DNA of 64,000 bases, from assembly GCA_020073185.1 (NCBI GenBank), contig JAIQFT010000025.1, positions 1 to 64,000 of the forward strand, given 5' to 3'. The stretch comes from Terriglobia bacterium (GTDB taxonomy: Bacteria > Acidobacteriota > Terriglobia > Terriglobales > Acidobacteriaceae). Shown here in pieces: positions 54,963 through 63,957 of the stretch. The position numbers and the translations under genes are program-made. Numbering within the stretch: the first letter of the stretch is position 1; every line of letters starts with the position of its first letter. The notes beneath the pieces are model-generated. The model saw nothing but the letters and a program-made list of their open reading frames with translations, searched no databases and had not been told where the DNA came from.

Positions 54963-56966
54963 TTGCCACAGCGGCACGAACCAAGGGGCGCCACTTCCGT
55001 CTTGCGTTGGTCCCATCTTGCCATGGCGACTGTGGTGTGCCTTGGTACAGCGGCCAGCCTTGTGCTGTGCGCCGCCCCGGCGCGGGCGCAAATTTCTCCC
55101 GGACTGCTCTCCCGACCGCACAGCTTCCTGAACGGCGACACCAATTGCACCAGCTGCCACCGCCTCGGCGGTCAAGCCACGTTCAAATGCCTGGAGTGCC
55201 ACACCGAAATCGGCAGCCGGATTGCCGCCGGGCGCGGCTTTCACGCGCGCATCGTGGCGAAAGAGGCCGGCAGCCAGAGCTGCGCCGGTTGTCACTCCGA
55301 ACACAACGGCGAAGAGTTCGCGATCATCAAATGGGCGCCGTCGCAACAGCAGTTCGATCACGGGAAAACCGGTTGGGCGCTGACGGGGAAACATGCTGCG
55401 CTGAGCTGCAACCGCTGCCATACGCCAGCCAACATCGTGACCGGCGAGAAGCCGCTGATTAAGGTCAAAGACCTGAGCCGAACCTATCTGGGCTTGTCCT
55501 CCGATTGCGCCGGCTGCCATAAAGATCCGCACCTCGGGCAACTGGGCCGCACCTGTGAGCAGTGCCACAGCACCAACGACTGGAAGGCGCTGGCAGGCTT
55601 CAATCATGCGCGCACCCGCTTCGCCCTCACCGGCGGCCACGCGCGCGTCGCCTGCCAGAAGTGCCACACGCCGACCGAGCCGGGCGGAGTACCGCGCTGG
55701 AAGGGTCTCGCCTTCGATCGCTGCACCGCGTGCCACGCGGACCGGCACCGCGGAACGTTTGTCAATTCCTGCCAATCGTGTCACAGCACCGTCACCTGGA
55801 AGTCGGTACCGGCGACGACTCTGGCGGGCAAATTTGACCACGCAACGACGAAGTACCCTCTACGGGGCAAGCACGCACTGTTGGGCTGCGAGCAATGCCA
55901 CGCGGCGGGAGATTTCAAAAAGCCGATCGCCTTCCAGCAATGCTCCGACTGCCATCGTCCCGATCCGCACAGCGGGCAATTCGCCCAGCGCGCGGACGCC
56001 GGCGAGTGCTCATCGTGCCACACCGTGGAGGGCTTTAAGCCGGCTAAATTCGGCCTCGCCGACCACAACAAGACCTACCCGCTGCAGGGCAAGCACGCTT
56101 CGGTTGGTTGCGAGAAGTGCCATCTCCCGGCGGGCAAGGCGACGCTGTACCGCCTCAAGTTTGCCCAGTGCACCGACTGTCATCGCGATGTCCACGAACG
56201 GCAGTTCGCCACCGCTCCCATCCTGAATCGCTGTGAGTCGTGTCACTCGTTGCAGGAATTCCGGCCGTCAACATTTACTCAGGCGCGCCACCAGAGCTCG
56301 CGTTTTCCGCTGAGCGGGGGTCACGTGGCGGTCGCCTGCAGCGACTGTCATCGACCCCTGGGAGGGCCCGGCCTGGAAAGGGTGGCGCGCTATCGTTTTG
56401 AGGACCGCTCGTGCACCACATGTCACCGCGATCCGCATCGCGGGCAATTTGCCGAGCGCATGCGGATGGTCGCCGGCAACGGCAAGCCCGCCGGCTGCCA
56501 AGCCTGCCACTCCTTGGCCTCCTGGAAAGAATTGGCGGGCTTCGATCACGCCTCGACGGAATTTGCCCTGCTGGGCGCGCATCGCGCCGTCGCCTGCGCC
56601 GATTGTCACCGTCCGCCCAACCTGGAGACCACGCTGGCCGACGTTAACTTCGGCGTGGCACCAAGAACATGCGAGGGTTGTCACCGGAGCCCCCACGGCG
56701 GGCAGTTCGTGGTGGCCGGGGTGGCGGAGCAATGCGCCTCGTGTCACAACAGCAACAAATGGAAACCCTCGCTATTTGATCACAATACCCGCACTCGCTT
56801 CCCGCTGGAAGGGGTACACAAGAACGTGCGCTGTGCGCGGTGCCATAGCAGTACCAGGCTGGTGGATGGCGACGAAGTGTTGTTCTACAAGCCCACGCCA
56901 AGGGAATGCGCGGCCTGCCACGGCCCTGCCGTGACGCCAACTTCCGCCACGGCGGCCCGCCGCTAA
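54963..56966 (+). CDS. Multiheme c-type cytochrome, 23 CxxCH motifs
   Basis: Predicted ~667 residues, signal peptide ending AAPARA before QISPG. Starts at TTG 54963, TTG 55002 or ATG 55023 are possible; the upstream ones give a positive leader. 23 CxxCH heme sites were counted, roughly one per 27 residues. The recurring unit F(D/N)H-x5-(F/Y)xLxGxHxxxxCxxCH (for example GGHARVACQKCH, GKHALLGCEQCH, GAHRAVACADCH) supplies extra His residues for bis-His ligation. A periplasmic or extracellular electron carrier. Same strand as the 40-heme gene 304 bp downstream and shares its repeat unit. Confidence 0.92.
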   Translation: MPQRHEPRGATSVLRWSHLAMATVVCLGTAASLVLCAAPARAQISPGLLSRPHSFLNGDTNCTSCHRLGGQATFKCLECHTEIGSRIAAGRGFHARIVAKEAGSQSCAGCHSEHNGEEFAIIKWAPSQQQFDHGKTGWALTGKHAALSCNRCHTPANIVTGEKPLIKVKDLSRTYLGLSSDCAGCHKDPHLGQLGRTCEQCHSTNDWKALAGFNHARTRFALTGGHARVACQKCHTPTEPGGVPRWKGLAFDRCTACHADRHRGTFVNSCQSCHSTVTWKSVPATTLAGKFDHATTKYPLRGKHALLGCEQCHAAGDFKKPIAFQQCSDCHRPDPHSGQFAQRADAGECSSCHTVEGFKPAKFGLADHNKTYPLQGKHASVGCEKCHLPAGKATLYRLKFAQCTDCHRDVHERQFATAPILNRCESCHSLQEFRPSTFTQARHQSSRFPLSGGHVAVACSDCHRPLGGPGLERVARYRFEDRSCTTCHRDPHRGQFAERMRMVAGNGKPAGCQACHSLASWKELAGFDHASTEFALLGAHRAVACADCHRPPNLETTLADVNFGVAPRTCEGCHRSPHGGQFVVAGVAEQCASCHNSNKWKPSLFDHNTRTRFPLEGVHKNVRCARCHSSTRLVDGDEVLFYKPTPRECAACHGPAVTPTSATAARR

Positions 56967-57270: not shown

Positions 57271-60200
57271 TTGATTCCAACTGGAGAGTGGAAGTTGCTT
57301 TCGATGCTAGCACTGCAACTAGTGCTGCTGGTGGCGCCGGCGATAGGCAGCCCGGCACCGCCACCGCAAACCGCTCCAAACACACGCAGTCCCCACGGCG
57401 CGCTGAATATTCCCTGCCAGAATTGCCACACGTTCTCAGGCTGGAAGCCCATTCGCAGCATGCCCGAGTTCGATCACAGCAAAACCCGCTATCCACTGCG
57501 CGGCATGCACAAGAACGTGGCCTGCGTGGAATGCCACAGCAATGCCGTGTTCACCAACGTCGGGAACAAGTGTGCCGACTGCCACGCCGACATCCATCGC
57601 CGCCAGATGGGGGCGCAGTGCGAGCAGTGCCACAGCGTGAACGGTTGGACGGTATCGCTCAAGTCCATCAGCGAGCACCAGAACCGCTTTCCGCTCATCG
57701 GAGCGCACGCGGTCACAGATTGCGAGTCCTGTCATAAAGGCGCCGCGGTGGGACAGTTCAAGGGGCTGTCCACCGATTGCGTCAGTTGCCACATGACCAC
57801 GTTCACCAATACGAAGTCTCCCAGTCACGTGGCCTTGAACTTCTCTACAAACTGCCAGCAATGCCACCGGTCGATGGACTCGTGGGCAGGAGCGACCTTC
57901 AATCACCTGGCTTTCACCGGCTTTGCGCTCACCGGCGCGCACGCCACCCTGGACTGCAGTGTGTGCCACGTCGGCGGTCGCTACCAGGGCACTCCGTCGA
58001 ACTGCACTGGCTGCCACCTCAAGGACTACAACGGCGCCAAGGATCCTAATCACGCCCAGATCGGCTTCCCGCAGACCTGCTCGCAATGCCACAGCACCGC
58101 TACCTGGCTGGGAGCAACGTTCAATCACGCGATCACCGGGTTCGCCCTCACGGGAGCCCACGCGAGCTTGAGTTGCTCGTCGTGCCACACCGGCGGAACG
58201 CTGACGGCAGCCAACACCACCTGCGTGTCCTGCCACCTGACGGATTTCCAGAAAACCACGAATCCCAACCACGCGTTGATCGGCTTCCCAACCGACTGCT
58301 TGTCGTGCCACAGCACCACCAATTGGCAGGGGGCAAAGTTTGACCACTCGACGACGGGCTTTGCGCTCACCGGCGCGCACGCGAGCCTGAATTGTTCGTC
58401 ATGCCATACCGGCGGAACGTTGACTGCAGCCAGCACGAACTGCGTGTCTTGCCACCTGAAGGATTTCCAGGGCACTACGAATCCGAACCATGTGGCGGGC
58501 GGATTTGCGCAGCAGTGCAACCTCTGCCACACGACGACCGCCTGGCAGCCGGCCACGTTTGACCACAGCAAGTCGGGCTTCTCGCTCACCGGCGCGCATG
58601 CCACCGTCGCCTGCGCGCAGTGCCACGTGAACGGAAACTACAACCTCACGTCGGCGGCGTGCGCCACGTGCCACCTGACGGATTTCCAGAAAACCACGAA
58701 TCCGAATCACGCGTCGGTCGGCTTCCCGACGGACTGCTCGGTCTGCCACAACACCACGAACTGGCTGGGGGCGACGTTCAACCACTCGACGACCGGCTTC
58801 CCCCTCACCGGCGCGCACGCGAGCCTGACTTGCTCCTCGTGCCACACGGGTGGCTCATTATCGGCGGCCAATACGAACTGCGTGTCCTGTCACCTGAAGG
58901 ATTTCCAGGGCGCTACGAATCCAAACCACGTGGCGCTAGCGTTCCCACAGCAGTGCAATACCTGCCATACGACGACGGCATGGCAGCCCGCGACCTTCAA
59001 TCACGCGACGACGGGCTTCCCGCTGACCGGCGCGCACGCCACCGCCACCTGCACTCAGTGCCACACCAACGGAAACTACAACATCACCTCAGCAGCCTGC
59101 GCGACGTGCCACCTGAAGGATTACCAGAGTACGACGAATCCGAACCACACGGCCGTCGCCTTCCCCCAGACCTGTGAGCAATGCCATAGCACGACGAACT
59201 GGCTGGGCGCGACCTTCAACCACGCGACGACGGGCTTTGCGCTCACCGGCACGCACGCCACCCTGGCTTGCTCGTCGTGCCACGGAGGCACTCCATTAGC
59301 GGCCGCCAATGCGGCCTGCGCGTCCTGCCACCTGAAGGATTACCAGGCTACGACGAATCCGAGTCACGTGGCAGTCAGCTTCCCGACGGACTGCTCGCAA
59401 TGCCACAGCACCACCAACTGGTCGGGGGCGACGTTCAACCACGCGACGACGGGCTTTGCGCTCACCGGCACGCACGCCACGCAGGCTTGCTCGGTGTGCC
59501 ACGCAGGCACCCCATTAACGGCAGCCAACGCGGCGTGCGCGTCCTGCCACCTGAAGAATTACCAGGGTACGACGAATCCGAATCACGCCGCGGTCGGCTT
59601 CCCGACGGATTGTTCGTTGTGCCACAGCACCACCAACTGGTCGGGGGCGACGTTCAACCACGCGACGACGGGCTTTACTCTCACCGGCGCGCACGCCACC
59701 CTGAATTGCTCGGCGTGCCACGGCAGCACCCCATTAAGTGCCGCCAACACCACCTGCGTGTCCTGCCACCTCAAGGATTACAACGGGACGACGAGTCCGA
59801 ACCACGTGACGTTAGCGTTCCCACAGACGTGCGAGATCTGCCATACCACCACGGTGTGGCAGCCGGCTACGTTTGACCACAGCAAGACGGTGTTTCCGCT
59901 GACCGGCGCGCATACCAGCGTGGCCTGCGCCCTTTGCCACATCGGAGGAAATTACACCACCACGCCCACTGACTGCTATTCGTGTCACAAGGCCGACTAC
60001 ACGGGCGTCACCAACCCGAACCACATCGCGGCGGGATTCCCCACCACCTGCCAGACGTGCCACACCACCACCTCGTGGGCCGGCGCAACCTTCAATCACA
60101 CTTGGTTCCCGATCCCGCACCACAGCGCGAAGCTGTGCAGCGACTGTCATACCAACCCTTCCGATTACACGGTATTCGTGTGCACCAGTTGCCACACGCA

Positions 60201-60294
60201 GGGACCGACGACCTCGGAGCACTCCGGGGTCAAGGGATTTGTCTGGAACAGCGCGAATTGTTATGCCTGCCACAAGAACGGTGGCGGGGGGTAA
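57271..60294 (+). CDS. Giant multiheme c-type cytochrome, 40 CxxCH motifs in tandem tri-heme repeats
   Basis: Predicted 1007 residues, signal peptide (LLSMLALQLVLLVAPAIGS). Start TTG 57271, TTG 57295 (GGAGAG six bases upstream) or ATG 57304 are possible. I count 40 CxxCH. After six introductory hemes (residues ~50-170) come ten tandem units of about 73 residues, each with three CxxCH and three further conserved His (FNH or FDH, GAH or GTH, NPNH or NPSH), enough to supply all distal heme ligands. Then a shorter, more diverged end with four more CxxCH (LCSDCH, VCTSCH, NCYACH). It should bind 40 hemes in a long chain and conduct electrons outside the cytoplasm. Confidence 0.93.
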   Translation: MIPTGEWKLLSMLALQLVLLVAPAIGSPAPPPQTAPNTRSPHGALNIPCQNCHTFSGWKPIRSMPEFDHSKTRYPLRGMHKNVACVECHSNAVFTNVGNKCADCHADIHRRQMGAQCEQCHSVNGWTVSLKSISEHQNRFPLIGAHAVTDCESCHKGAAVGQFKGLSTDCVSCHMTTFTNTKSPSHVALNFSTNCQQCHRSMDSWAGATFNHLAFTGFALTGAHATLDCSVCHVGGRYQGTPSNCTGCHLKDYNGAKDPNHAQIGFPQTCSQCHSTATWLGATFNHAITGFALTGAHASLSCSSCHTGGTLTAANTTCVSCHLTDFQKTTNPNHALIGFPTDCLSCHSTTNWQGAKFDHSTTGFALTGAHASLNCSSCHTGGTLTAASTNCVSCHLKDFQGTTNPNHVAGGFAQQCNLCHTTTAWQPATFDHSKSGFSLTGAHATVACAQCHVNGNYNLTSAACATCHLTDFQKTTNPNHASVGFPTDCSVCHNTTNWLGATFNHSTTGFPLTGAHASLTCSSCHTGGSLSAANTNCVSCHLKDFQGATNPNHVALAFPQQCNTCHTTTAWQPATFNHATTGFPLTGAHATATCTQCHTNGNYNITSAACATCHLKDYQSTTNPNHTAVAFPQTCEQCHSTTNWLGATFNHATTGFALTGTHATLACSSCHGGTPLAAANAACASCHLKDYQATTNPSHVAVSFPTDCSQCHSTTNWSGATFNHATTGFALTGTHATQACSVCHAGTPLTAANAACASCHLKNYQGTTNPNHAAVGFPTDCSLCHSTTNWSGATFNHATTGFTLTGAHATLNCSACHGSTPLSAANTTCVSCHLKDYNGTTSPNHVTLAFPQTCEICHTTTVWQPATFDHSKTVFPLTGAHTSVACALCHIGGNYTTTPTDCYSCHKADYTGVTNPNHIAAGFPTTCQTCHTTTSWAGATFNHTWFPIPHHSAKLCSDCHTNPSDYTVFVCTSCHTQGPTTSEHSGVKGFVWNSANCYACHKNGGGG
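57853..60048. repeat. Coding tandem repeat, ten units of ~219 bp
   Basis: Spans heme 7 to heme 36 of the giant cytochrome: 2196 bp, which is ten units of 219 bp to within 6 bp. Units are similar in DNA as well as protein, with spacing 32, 16 and 25 residues between successive CxxCH. It is prone to unequal recombination and assembly collapse. Confidence 0.85.
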
Positions 60295-60320: not shown

Positions 60321-62243
60321 ATGAAGTTTAGACCTGGCACTTACTACTGTTCGCGGAGCACGCGGGCAAGGCTGGCAACGCTGACCTGCATGCTCGCGAT
60401 GGCGACGGCGGCGTCCGGCCAGCAGGAGTCCTCTCCGGCCGAGCAGACGCAACAGGTGCAGCGCCTGCCGCCAGTATCAGCAGCCGTGCAAACGGTGGCA
60501 AAAGCGCCGGAGTCGCAGCCCGCGACACAAACCGTCTCGCAGCCGCAGACAGTGGAACAAGCCCTCCCGCAGCCACAACAAGACTCGCCCGTCGTGCTCC
60601 CTCCCTCGGGTCTCCATGTGCAGACGATGTTCAAGGTGAAGTACGTCGCCGAGCACAGCGTGTATCTCAATGGCGGGCGCGCTGCCGGCCTCTCCGAGGG
60701 CATGAAGCTGACAATCAGGCGTCGCGCCCAGCGCAGCGATGCGGCCAACGCGAGCGGCGCCGTGGACACTGCCGAGCTCGAGGTCGCCTCCGTGGCTTCG
60801 GCATCGGCGGTGTGCGAGGTGAAGAGCACGACGGCGGAGATTCACGCCGGCGATATCGCTTACCTCTCCGCGGCGGACGCCGAAACGCTGGCGCAAACGC
60901 GCGCCACCGGCGGAGCGCGCAAGTATCCCCAAGTGGTGACGTTCAGCGAAGGAGATCCGTTGGAGGAGGAAGTGCGTGACGAAGTGCCGCGCCCACCGTT
61001 GCCGGAAGTGAATCGCGCGCGCGGCCGGATCGGGTTGGATTTCAGCGGGATCAGCAGCCGCGGGTCGGTGGCGTCCAGCAGTTACCAGCTCGGAGGCGTG
61101 GTGCGCGCCGATGTGACCCGCATCGGCGGCAGCTACTGGAACCTGAGCGGATACTGGCGGGGCCGCCTCAACAACAGCTCTGCTCCCGGGCAACCCACGC
61201 TGTCCGATCTGATCAATCGCACTTATCACCTCAGCCTGAGCTACAACAACCCGCAATCGAAGTGGGTGGCGGGCGTGGGCCGGCTTTATCTGCCGTGGGC
61301 CAGCAGTCTGGACACGCTCGACGGCGGCTATATCGGACGCAAGCTCGGGCACGGCGCGACCGCCGGCATCTTCGCCGGATCCACTCCCGACCCGACCTCT
61401 TGGGATTACAACCCGGACCGCCGCATCGCCGGTTCGTTCATCAATTTTGAGGGTGGCAGTTTCGACTCCGTTCACTACACCAGCACCTCCGGCATGGCGA
61501 TGAGCAGCATCGGGTGGGTGCTGGAACGCCCGTTCATCTTCTTCGAAAACGGGATCTTCTATAAGCGCTACTTCTCGGTGTATCAATCGGCGCAGGCCGA
61601 CGATCCGCGCCCGGTCCCCAGAGTCGCCAGGGCCGGGGCCGGTCTCAGCCGCAGCTTCATTACGGTCCGCTTTCAACCGCACCCGCGCATCTCTTTCGAC
61701 CTGAACCACAACTACTTCCGCGACGTGCCCACATTTTCGCAACAACTGATCGGCACCGGGCTGGTGGACAAATTTCTGTTTCAGGGGCTAAGCGCCGGGG
61801 TGCGCGTGGAAACGGTGCGGCACATCACCTTGTACGCCGATCTGGGACGCAGCAGCCGCAGCGGCGATCAGCGGAATTCCTGGAACGAACTCTACGGCAT
61901 CACCTGGGACCGCATCTGGATAACGGGACTCCGGGCCGACCTGCGTTTTTCCAAGTTCGACAGTTCCTTCGGCTCAGGTAGCTATCGCTCGCTGGCGTTG
62001 TCGCGCAACGTTGGCGAGCGCCTGCACTGGCAGGTACAGGCCGGCCGGCAGACCTTGGTGTCCAGTTTCACCGGCCAGGGCGCATCGCGTTTCGTGAACG
62101 GGTCGGTCGACGCCACCTTCGGACACTACTTCCTCCAAGGCGATTACACCGCGCAGCGCGGCGCCCTGTTTGACTACGACCAGTGGATTATGACTTTCGG
62201 CTTCCGCTTCGATAATCGCTCCCGGATGGGAGGCGTGAAATGA
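60321..62243 (+). CDS. Outer-membrane beta-barrel protein of the cytochrome cluster
   Basis: Predicted 640 residues. The start at 60321 has GGAG 8 bp upstream; N-terminus is a signal peptide (ending MATAASG). Residues ~25-95 are Gln/Pro/Ala-rich, ~95-190 a small domain (VKYVAEHSVYLNGGRAAGLSEGMKLTIRRRA). From about 235 to the end are alternating amphipathic strands with aromatic girdles (YQLGGVVRADVTRIGGSYWNLSGYWRG, YHLSLSYNNPQSKWVAGVGRLYL, ITVRFQPHPRISFDLNHNYF), ending QWIMTFGFRFDNRSRMGG, typical of a barrel of ~16-20 strands. Following the multiheme cytochromes, it may be the porin component of a porin-cytochrome conduit. Ends in a 4 bp overlap with the next gene. Confidence 0.7.
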   Translation: MKFRPGTYYCSRSTRARLATLTCMLAMATAASGQQESSPAEQTQQVQRLPPVSAAVQTVAKAPESQPATQTVSQPQTVEQALPQPQQDSPVVLPPSGLHVQTMFKVKYVAEHSVYLNGGRAAGLSEGMKLTIRRRAQRSDAANASGAVDTAELEVASVASASAVCEVKSTTAEIHAGDIAYLSAADAETLAQTRATGGARKYPQVVTFSEGDPLEEEVRDEVPRPPLPEVNRARGRIGLDFSGISSRGSVASSSYQLGGVVRADVTRIGGSYWNLSGYWRGRLNNSSAPGQPTLSDLINRTYHLSLSYNNPQSKWVAGVGRLYLPWASSLDTLDGGYIGRKLGHGATAGIFAGSTPDPTSWDYNPDRRIAGSFINFEGGSFDSVHYTSTSGMAMSSIGWVLERPFIFFENGIFYKRYFSVYQSAQADDPRPVPRVARAGAGLSRSFITVRFQPHPRISFDLNHNYFRDVPTFSQQLIGTGLVDKFLFQGLSAGVRVETVRHITLYADLGRSSRSGDQRNSWNELYGITWDRIWITGLRADLRFSKFDSSFGSGSYRSLALSRNVGERLHWQVQAGRQTLVSSFTGQGASRFVNGSVDATFGHYFLQGDYTAQRGALFDYDQWIMTFGFRFDNRSRMGGVK

Positions 62244-63022
62244 CCTTCGCCCGCCTCCTTCTCTATCCGCTCATGCTCTCGCTTGTCCTGCCCGCTTCCG
62301 CTACCGACGCGCTGCCGCCGGACCTGCTTGCTCGCACCCGTGCCCAGGTCGAAAGTTTCCTCAAGCTGTTCTCGGAGGTGCGCTGCACGGAAGTAGTCAC
62401 GCAGACCAAGCTGGCGAAGAACGGCAAAGTCGAGCACCAGGAAAAATCGACCTATGATTACCTGGTTCTGGCGCAAGAATCGGGATCGTATCTGAACCTG
62501 CAGGAATCGCGCCTGGAACAGCAGGCGCCGCAAAGGAAAGCCAATGTCCCGCTGCTGGTGACCAACGGCTTCGCTACCCTGCTGCTGGTGTTTCATCCTT
62601 CCTACCAGGACAGTTTCGAGTTTTCTCCCCCGGAAACCGAGGTCGTCAACGGGCAGACGCTGGCCCGCATTGCATTCCGCCACATCCGCAACAAGCCGAC
62701 GACCATGGAACTGGTGCTGCGCGGCCGGGAATATCCCCTCGACATCACCGGGAGTGCCTGGATTGATCCCGCTTCCGGCAGCATCGTCCGCATCGAGGCG
62801 GAACTGGCGCAGGCGATGGATGACATCGGTTTGCGGGTGCTGCGCACCGATGTACAATACGATCCAGTCCACGTGCGGGGTGTGGATGATTCGTTGCGCC
62901 TGCCGTCGCTGGCGACGGTCGAGGTGCAAACTGCGCGCCAGCACTGGCGCAACATTCACCGCTTCAGCGGCTACCAGCATTTCTCCGTGGATGTAGAGGA
63001 GACCGTGAAGGCCCAAAAGTGA
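62240..63022 (+). CDS. Secreted protein of unknown function in the cytochrome cluster
   Basis: Predicted 260 residues. Signal peptide (LLLYPLMLSLVLPASAT) and a soluble beta-rich body (FLKLFSEVRCTEVVTQTKL, STYDYLVLAQESGSYLNLQESRLEQQ, LVLRGREYPLDITGSAWIDPASGSIVRIEAELAQ). A single Cys, no heme motif. It overlaps the barrel gene (ATGA) and the following membrane cytochrome gene (GTGA) so all three are translationally coupled. Probably a periplasmic or outer-membrane-associated accessory factor, by context only. Confidence 0.75.
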   Translation: MTFARLLLYPLMLSLVLPASATDALPPDLLARTRAQVESFLKLFSEVRCTEVVTQTKLAKNGKVEHQEKSTYDYLVLAQESGSYLNLQESRLEQQAPQRKANVPLLVTNGFATLLLVFHPSYQDSFEFSPPETEVVNGQTLARIAFRHIRNKPTTMELVLRGREYPLDITGSAWIDPASGSIVRIEAELAQAMDDIGLRVLRTDVQYDPVHVRGVDDSLRLPSLATVEVQTARQHWRNIHRFSGYQHFSVDVEETVKAQK

Positions 63023-63957
63023 GTTCGACAACGATTGCACAGCCCGCGGCGCAAACCTCAGCGTCGCTCAGCGGCCACCGGCTGCGCCTGCTCGCCGGCT
63101 ACGCCGCTGCCGTGACCCTGATCGTGACTCTGGCGATCTACGGCGCCGATTACTACACCCTGGACATCACGCAGCGCCCGTTCTCGCCCAAGTACGCGCT
63201 ACTGAAGCCCAGCGGCGTCATCGGCATTAAGCTAGGCTTGCTGGGCTTGAGCCTGTTCTTGATCATCTTCCTCTATCCGCTGCGCAAGCGGTGGAAATGG
63301 TTGTCGCAGCAGGGAATCACCAAGCACTGGATGGATTTTCACGTCCTGTGCGGTCTGTCAGCTCCGTTCGTGATCGCCTTCCATGCCTCGTTCAAGTTTC
63401 GTGGCTTCGCCGGCACGGCGTTTTGGATCATGAGCGCGGTCGCGCTCAGCGGAGTCATCGGCCGCTACTTGTACAGCCAGATACCGCGCCGCGTGACGGC
63501 GGCGGAGCTATCGTTTAAGGAAGCGCGCGATCTGCAGGAGAAGTACACGGCTCAGCTTTCCTCGCAGCGCCTGATCCGTCCATCTTATTTGCGGGCGCTG
63601 TTTAGCGTCCCCACCGAAGAGCAGGTGGCGCGGATGCCCATCGTGGTGATGTTGGCATACATGGTAGGCCTGGATTTGCTGCGGCCGTGGCGCATCGCTC
63701 GCCTGCGGCGCCGTACCTTGACCAGGTGGCAATCGGTCAGCAGCCTGGGCGGCCTGTTGCGCACCACGAACCTGGAACTCGAGCAAGCCGTGGACATTGC
63801 CCGTGCCCAAGCTGCCCTGTCCAAGCGCCTGACCTTTTTCTCGCGCGTGCAAAAGGCGTTCCATCTCTGGCACGTCGTGCACAGGCCGTTCAGCTACACA
63901 TTTGCCGTACTCGCCATCATTCACATCGCGGTCGTGTGGCTGTTGGGGTATATCTGA
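63019..63957 (+). CDS. Cytochrome b-type/ferric-reductase-like integral membrane protein
   Basis: Predicted 312 residues, GTG start overlapping the previous stop. About five or six membrane helices: LLAGYAAAVTLIVTLAIYGADYY, IGIKLGLLGLSLFLIIFLYPL, DFHVLCGLSAPFVIAFHASFKF, GTAFWIMSAVALSGVIGRYLY, and the last, HRPFSYTFAVLAIIHIAVVWLLG. His in HWMDFH, AFHAS, LWHVVHR and IIHI are suited to bind two hemes b. It probably links the quinone pool to the periplasmic and outer-membrane cytochromes. An amphipathic soluble region lies between helices 4 and 5. Confidence 0.75.
   Translation: MSSTTIAQPAAQTSASLSGHRLRLLAGYAAAVTLIVTLAIYGADYYTLDITQRPFSPKYALLKPSGVIGIKLGLLGLSLFLIIFLYPLRKRWKWLSQQGITKHWMDFHVLCGLSAPFVIAFHASFKFRGFAGTAFWIMSAVALSGVIGRYLYSQIPRRVTAAELSFKEARDLQEKYTAQLSSQRLIRPSYLRALFSVPTEEQVARMPIVVMLAYMVGLDLLRPWRIARLRRRTLTRWQSVSSLGGLLRTTNLELEQAVDIARAQAALSKRLTFFSRVQKAFHLWHVVHRPFSYTFAVLAIIHIAVVWLLGYI

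Follow-up and report, generated by a model that had tools for sequence, protein, structure and literature searches.

A 40-heme cytochrome of a Terriglobia bacterium, probably a heme wire of variable length in a PCC3-type porin-cytochrome conduit

The porin-cytochrome conduits of the PCC3 type comprise a porin, an extracellular cytochrome with a median of 34 and up to 85 hemes, a periplasmic cytochrome with a median of 21 hemes and an inner-membrane protein (He et al. 2017, PMC5566968; this and the other papers are cited for those portions of their texts that are drawn on here). Two WX3HX13H motifs and one SGXXG motif form the signature of the inner-membrane proteins of both PCC3 and PCC4, and the extracellular PCC3 cytochromes contain repeats of at least one heme each, rich in Thr, Ser, Ala and Gly, which are displayed in a supplementary figure of the same paper (PMC5566968). 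Among the Gallionellaceae the extracellular PCC3 subunits carry 10-18, 26, 28, 29, 33 or 35 motifs, and PCC3 cytochromes have been modelled as long and mostly linear molecules, for which a role in reach or storage was proposed (PMC10734462); the literature, as far as drawn on, describes PCC3 as functionally untested. Other described systems include MtrCAB, in which the ten MtrA hemes span 80 Å (PMC7198977), the Geobacter Pcc conduits, with porins of 18-22 predicted strands and cytochromes of 5-14 and 1-15 hemes (PMC4245776), and GSU1996, a dodecaheme protein with one His-Met heme per domain (PMC10138318). In a 2026 survey Acidobacteriota are one of several phyla with porin-cytochrome clusters, and clusters whose cytochromes have more than 20 motifs form a group for which its text does not name the phyla (PMC13264449). 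Here we describe a locus in a 64,000-nucleotide stretch of a Terriglobia bacterium of the Acidobacteriota (contig JAIQFT010000025.1, positions 1 to 64,000; the window), which codes for a 40-heme cytochrome that is probably the variable-length heme wire of a PCC3-type conduit.

The open reading frame at 57271-60294 holds 40 CxxCH motifs, as counted in an earlier sequence-only reading of the window; 80 of its 80 Cys lie inside these motifs and 41 of its His are non-proximal. Shuffles of the protein's own composition gave a mean of 0.5 and a maximum of 3 CxxCH motifs in 1000 trials. The heme spacings along the chain run 36 16 16 34 19 25, then 34 16 25, nine times 32 16 25, and end with 29 15 26, defining two caps and a repetitive middle:

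57271..60294, forward strand: the 40-heme wire cytochrome, 1007 codons counted from TTG 57271
57283..57297, forward strand: possible ribosome-binding site GGAGAG (57283-57288) and alternative TTG start (57295-57297), as suggested by the sequence and the N-termini of homologues
57415..57852, forward strand: N-terminal cap (N-cap) of six hemes, residues 49-194, two degenerate triheme units, with its spacing (36 16 16 34 19 25) kept across the family
57853..60048, forward strand: ten triheme modules, residues 195-926, the first of 75 residues (225 bp) and the other nine of 73 residues (219 bp)
60049..60294, forward strand: C-terminal cap (C-cap) of four hemes, residues 927-1007, with the stop; spacing 29 15 26 and similar ends across the family

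The start codon is uncertain, TTG 57295, which lies six bases after GGAGAG, being equally likely as TTG 57271. The protein appears to be exported, as had been proposed, on the strength of an apparent signal peptide, and no lipid anchor motif is seen before its first heme. The ten triheme modules read earlier from the sequence are real, although only nine of them are of the 219 bp then given to all ten. Likewise, the description of the array as a repetition of an identical cassette does not hold, since the nine modules of equal length are only 47-84% alike in protein (56-87% in DNA). In composition the modules are rich in Ala, Thr, Ser and Gly and poor in charge, with 17% Thr, 13% Ala and 0.3% Glu and Arg.

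A search for proteins with the same module, one of the checks suggested beforehand, recovered 61 wire proteins, a family in which the N-cap and C-cap are constant and the middle varies. With n denoting the number of triheme modules, 10+3n hemes are found in 42 of the 44 proteins that possess both caps (the window protein included), and every n from 0 to 17 is seen, i.e. 10-61 hemes. The remaining 17 wire proteins were left out of this set on account of contig-end cuts, fusion to a partner, masked letters or the lack of a recognisable cap (L073 being in the wrong frame). Atypical CX3-4CH motifs are counted as hemes, as is needed in L039, L075 and L104, and L025, L044, L046 and L057 are repeat contigs of the window, L027, L039 and L032, respectively. 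Three further whole proteins from Bacteroidota also fit the ladder, namely those of Emticicia (40 hemes), L130 (22) and L131 (13). Both exceptions lost the middle one (B) of the three module hemes A, B and C together with the His of the GxH motif, once in L033 and in the central modules of L070; L069, which lies outside the 44, also has two-heme links from which the middle heme and the GxH His are both gone. The loci of L069 (9453-12098, elusimicrobial) and L070 (10241-12124, planctomycete) start with the same N-cap, after which repeats with two hemes each follow, 46 and 48 residues long. The smallest members, each with a distant relative of the barrel protein described below at its side, are L114 (7207-8133, no module, 10 hemes) and L110 (6208-7302, one module, 13 hemes).

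Of the 61 genomes nearest to the window 16 contain a wire homologue, a count that includes one weak match and the window's own genome. Homologues occur also in 36 of 297 genomes within the phylum and at 33 named loci of a species collection. At 28 of these loci the records are titled Acidobacteriota, and the others belong to Bacteroidales, Saprospiraceae, Elusimicrobia and Planctomycetota, together with one record titled Bordetella. The last, CALQCC020000017.1 (L046), is labelled Bordetella parapertussis and shares its wire locus with G054, which belongs to the window's own class; its organism name is probably wrong. In a sample of a Bacteroidota class 3 of 295 genomes match at E<=1e-60, and the system is uncommon there.

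The distribution of His follows the same architecture. From the first heme (His 42) to the last (His 984) of the window protein the numbers of non-proximal His before successive hemes keep a 1,2,0 rhythm, from which a doublet at 950/951 is the sole departure; the whole protein can thus be counted as 13 units of three hemes with one heme left over, or 10 + 3x10. Across the family, all 378 modules from 56 proteins have at least two His in the stretch between hemes A and B and one in the stretch from C to the next A, and the distribution is exactly 2,0,1 in 349 of the 378; the modules were picked by CxxCH spacing alone, so that those with a lost heme are not among them. At the level of whole proteins, the distal His are at least as many as the hemes in 57 of 59, and the two with fewer (L103, L105) start at a contig end. 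The proposal of one distal His per heme is hence borne out and extends from single modules to all 40 hemes of the window protein and to the 378 family modules. Beyond residue 202 the window protein lacks Met, which makes His-Met ligation of the GSU1996 kind impossible from its second module on. A lone His stands ahead of the very first and the very last heme, a position which suggests that the lone His of each unit serves heme A. That heme B and the GxH His disappeared together in L033, L069 and L070 fits a GxH His that serves heme B, and L065, in which one motif has become CxxCY with the GxH His retained, points neither way.

Sequence profile analysis indicates that the triheme module is related to the c7 cytochromes, given that the Pfam Cytochrome_C7 profile (PF14522) matches 44 of 44 single modules at E<=0.01. 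A window module scores 29.2 bits (cut-off 24.8) and the whole protein 171 bits, and in the alignments module hemes A, B and C fall on the three hemes of the profile. The NCBIfam c7 triheme domain TIGR04257 gives 69.2 bits for the whole protein (cut-off 40) and 19.5 for a single window module, with 19 of 44 single modules matching at E<=0.01. The modules have the order H-A-H-H-B-C, with an A-B spacing of 32 and a B-C spacing of 16, which differs from the c7 order of distal His and hemes, which we take to be H-H-I-H-III-IV; an alignment of the module with c7 would, by these presumed ligands, give the GxH His to heme C. The sequence-only reading, in holding that the spacing does not fit modules of the c7 type, was accordingly half right, in that the A-B spacing and the His order do differ while the module is nevertheless c7-related. 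The MtrA/DmsE decaheme model TIGR03508 reaches 40.9 bits, far below its cut-off of 192.2. In the PDB the best sequence matches of wire profiles are distant ones, to the HmcA-type 1z1n (E 1.3e-6) and, at E 1e-4 or weaker, to reaction-centre cytochrome subunits, and they are owed to the neighbourhoods of CxxCH motifs; 3ov0 (GSU1996) aligns with module hemes A to C at E 0.029.

Comparison with a gene of the same genus, L027, throws light on how the module number changes. L027 has n=6 against n=10 in the window, a difference of exactly four whole modules, and window modules 1, 2, 7, 8, 9 and 10 are closest to L027 modules 1-6 in the same order, which leaves the following block:

58297..59172, forward strand: modules 3-6, a block of four without counterpart in L027, module 3 being closest to 5 and module 4 to 6

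As judged from these alignments, four whole modules were either gained in the window gene or lost in L027, and the pattern within the block looks as after the doubling of a pair. In the family, the nearest relative lies within the same protein for 184 of 368 modules, mostly one or two places off, and n takes the values 10, 6, 8 and 6 within this one genus. The modules are shown by sequence comparison to be under purifying selection, with ratios of nonsynonymous to synonymous substitution rates (dN/dS) of 0.20 for the paired modules of the window and L027 and of 0.12-0.44 for five module pairs inside the window gene.

It is the gene cluster, left aside in the sequence-only reading, that tells most about the function of the wire, whose gene is preceded and followed by those of apparent partners:

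54963..56966, forward strand: 23-heme cytochrome c of 667 residues with 23 CxxCH motifs, the presumed periplasmic cytochrome of the conduit
60321..62243, forward strand: predicted outer-membrane beta-barrel protein of 640 residues, the presumed porin, with 22 predicted strands after a small N-terminal domain
62240..63022, forward strand: exported protein of 260 residues, linked in Terriglobia and conserved in position
63019..63957, forward strand: putative inner-membrane di-heme b-type protein of 312 residues, with W104/H108/H122, SGVIG at 144-148 and W284/H288/H302

The order of these five genes (23-heme cytochrome, 40-heme wire, barrel, exported protein, membrane protein) recurs in 28 of the 44 distinct wire loci of one locus set and in 4 of the 16 of another. 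Within the phylum, each of the 21 of 297 genomes that have the barrel also belongs to the 36 that have the wire (lists compared by eye). The window's own genome also gave five matches to PF01578, the cytochrome c assembly proteins. The 23-heme cytochrome is related in sequence to the wire (40% over residues 755-907), and its heme number is nearly constant, with 23 hemes in 39 of 59 best-match rows. Of the other 20 rows, 11 are wire proteins taken where the partner was missing or off the contig, three are fused or large (L056, L066, L068) and two cut or split (L036, L052), leaving four with a truly different number (L058 20, L069 17, L070 26, L071 24). The exported protein has no Pfam or NCBIfam match. 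In the membrane protein, two WX3HX13H motifs and one SGXXG are present in 41 of 43 homologues, window included, and H108, H122, H285, H288 and H302 are at least 95% conserved among the 43; its matches to Ferric_reduct and DUF4405 are weak and below cut-off. For the barrel, AlphaFold2 gave a model with a mean predicted local distance difference test (pLDDT) score of 74. Foldseek matched this model to 224 structures at E<=0.001, the TM-scores being low, and the best 50 of them are by their titles outer-membrane barrels or complexes holding one. The best VIA-align match has a Z of 16.8 and a root-mean-square deviation of 5.2 over 357 aligned residues. MtrB is neither among these best 50 of 224 nor among the VIA-align matches, by which kinship is not excluded, and a barrel profile searched against PDB sequences gave no match up to E 1. 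The small beta-rich N-terminal domain of the barrel protein (60657-60860) weakly resembles FlgT_C (20.7 bits, cut-off 27).

Several related loci deserve mention in their own right. The Emticicia oligotrophica DSM 17448 plasmid pEMTOL02 (L127; NC_018749.1, 78197-89995), a finished plasmid of a cultured strain, holds the whole cluster, with CcsA, a membrane protein in which the two motifs are present, an NAD(P)-binding protein, 23-heme and 40-heme cytochromes and a 538-residue protein that, by position alone, occupies the place of the barrel; the cluster thus adjoins its own cytochrome c assembly gene ccsA. The wire and the membrane protein are also found together in one planctomycete and one elusimicrobial genome. 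On contig 15 of the window's own genome (L026, 6464-15735) a second 23-heme protein, 65% identical to that of the window, lies beside a 12-heme and two 4-heme proteins, with no barrel relative listed nearby, and the same layout is seen in L041, from a genome of the same genus. Contig 18 of the own genome (L042, 7287-18001) has four more multiheme frames in a row, with 10, 19, 11 and at least 6 hemes. In L036 (7694-13393; G016) the wire, 23-heme and barrel genes are each in broken or shortened frames, reflecting decay or sequencing error.

This cluster resembles PCC3. Both combine a porin (here a predicted 22-strand barrel), two cytochromes (here of 23 and 40 hemes, the latter with 10-61 in relatives) and an inner-membrane protein of about 300 residues; in both, one cytochrome has near 21-27 hemes and the other many and variable hemes. 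The membrane protein shows the PCC3 signature, common also to PCC4, and the repeats of the wire and their richness in Ala, Thr, Ser and Gly are again reminiscent of the extracellular PCC3 cytochromes. The gene order of Sideroxydans ES-1 PCC3 (membrane protein, periplasmic, extracellular, porin; a table row in PMC12016527) is the order in Emticicia, with one gene between, and in L108, L112, L113 and L071. In the Terriglobia, by contrast, the membrane protein comes last and the extra exported protein is present, and the motif numbers of the Gallionellaceae extracellular subunits form no 10+3n series. The other described systems share fewer features. MtrCAB and MtoAB likewise join a barrel to a linear multiheme wire (PMC7198977), and MtrA has ten hemes as does the n=0 protein L114, whereas MtrB has 26 strands and the system no triheme insertions (PMC7198977). 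The Geobacter OmbB-OmaB-OmcB conduit also pairs a porin with periplasmic and outer cytochromes, but these have only 5-14 and 1-15 hemes, and no di-heme b protein with the WX3HX13H/SGXXG signature is reported for it in the text drawn on (PMC4245776). GSU1996 (PDB 3ov0) is likewise a single chain of c7-related triheme domains with its hemes in a continuous line (PMC10138318), but it has only four domains, each with a His-Met heme, is periplasmic, is not tied to a barrel and differs from the window module in the order of His. A further kind of described conduit is OetABI. The string 'Acidobacter' is absent from the main texts of PMC5566968 and PMC10734462, and the open-licence literature searched, figures and supplements not covered, contains no statement of a triheme ladder or 10+3n rule. 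The PCC3-type conduit itself is known, while the strict triheme ladder appears new.

Taken together, the above architectural and contextual observations make it probable that the 40-heme protein serves a PCC3-type conduit as its heme wire of variable length; the earlier idea of an extended heme wire is strengthened by the operon and the 10+3n ladder. Electrons would then pass between the quinone pool and the outside via the inner-membrane di-heme b protein, next through the 23-heme cytochrome in the periplasm, and then along the 40-heme cytochrome, held at or through the outer-membrane barrel. The motifs would all be loaded with heme, bis-His ligated and packed in a line. The constant ten-heme frame (six N-terminal and four C-terminal hemes) may dock to the partners, and the in-frame gain or loss of whole triheme modules would lengthen or shorten the span with the heme chain unbroken, as every module comes with three distal His of its own. 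If straight, the 40 hemes would span some 30-40 nm, compared with a membrane of about 40 Å, when scaled from the MtrA figure given above (PMC7198977) or from 12 nm per twelve GSU1996 hemes (a title in a reference list); the number of modules may mean reach. Going further, and with the balance leaning somewhat to the doubtful side, the protein might be a single-chain wire that evolves in fixed quanta, in which a constant ten-heme frame takes up 0-17 self-sufficient triheme links with their own axial ligands at one kind of barrel, the number of links rather than their sequence sets electron reach, and a link can be cut back to two hemes through the loss of one heme along with one His.

Several observations weigh against this assignment to a PCC3-type conduit. 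The likeness to the proteobacterial PCC3 is one of gene content and signature. Most PCC3 porins are larger, with up to 42 regions (PMC5566968), than the window barrel, whose 22 strands lie within the range of the Geobacter Pcc porins. Simple hydropathy of the membrane protein gives six hydrophobic stretches rather than the five of PCC3, and in 15 of the 36 genomes with a wire no barrel reached the cut-off. Both PCC3 clusters of Sideroxydans ES-1 are, in the text drawn on, lowered in expression on Fe(II). As to the ligation, a bis-His stoichiometry fits by His counts, yet a Met is present somewhere in 122 of the 378 family modules, so that His-Met ligation is not excluded everywhere. An AlphaFold2 model of the N-cap and three modules (34 rows) is poor, with a mean pLDDT of 57 and ten-residue block means of 34-65 up to residue 190 and 52-84 beyond; with this low-confidence model Foldseek gave no match at E<=10, and VIA-align compared two chains and listed none.

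Since the gene is made of tandem repeats, the module number itself could be suspected of being an assembly artefact, and n is indeed less sure in five relatives with exact repeats of 104-127 bp (L107, L104, L047, L043, L102). In the window gene this is unlikely, because its longest exact internal repeat is only 57 bp (25 bp in L027 and 40 bp in L028), and with n=7 in a one-contig genome (G035, the same as L038) and n=10 in the finished Emticicia plasmid such an origin of the module number is scarcely credible. The heme number could alternatively have been selected for storage, with more electrons stored as modules are added and reach incidental, making the protein an electron capacitor. On a 31-tip tree of the barrels n changes at least 20 times, against a mean of 21.2 with shuffled labels, and this wide spread with little phylogenetic order suggests no fixed target length; storage has also been proposed for PCC3 cytochromes (PMC10734462) and for GSU1996 (PMC10138318). 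Storage alone, however, requires neither constant caps at both ends nor a near-constant 23-heme partner, and n tends to be somewhat closer between barrels that resemble each other (Spearman -0.25), leaving selection for storage rather unlikely as the chief explanation. It is not exclusive of a wire, with which it would be compatible.

The envelope position of the modules admits a further alternative, in which they lie within the periplasm and bridge both membranes, n tracking the width of the periplasm rather than outside reach. Here the apparent export without a visible lipid anchor would be in keeping, as would the MtrA dimensions (PMC7198977), by which 20-40 hemes fit a periplasm, and the suggestion that 21-27 hemes may span it (PMC10734462). 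Such a bridge seems no more probable than selection for storage: with n running from 0 to 17 the heme number varies sixfold, probably more than periplasms do in width, n differs between 6 and 10 inside one genus, and the 23-heme partner is already long enough for the job. Lastly, constant ends with a variable middle would suit a subunit that polymerises end to end into extracellular filaments like those of OmcS, to which there is a weak profile match (E 0.0072). That match, however, consists of CxxCH neighbourhoods only, unrelated multiheme proteins score similarly, and the barrel and membrane partners suggest a conduit, so that a filament is very improbable. The heme wire of a conduit thus remains the preferred reading.

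The cluster extends PCC3-like systems, which PMC5566968 and PMC10734462 describe from Proteobacteria in the portions drawn on, to Acidobacteriota and Bacteroidota, and Emticicia oligotrophica DSM 17448 provides a cultured strain with the system that can be used for tests. Studies of how the conduction of heme chains depends on their length usually have to compare proteins unlike one another in every respect, whereas the wire family offers 10, 13, 16 and so on up to 61 hemes with the same ends and often the same partners, together with versions that have two-heme links; L114 and L110 are natural starting points for such a length series. If the more far-reaching reading of a wire that evolves in fixed quanta is true, nature would have provided one conductor, joined to a single kind of barrel, in a complete series of lengths.

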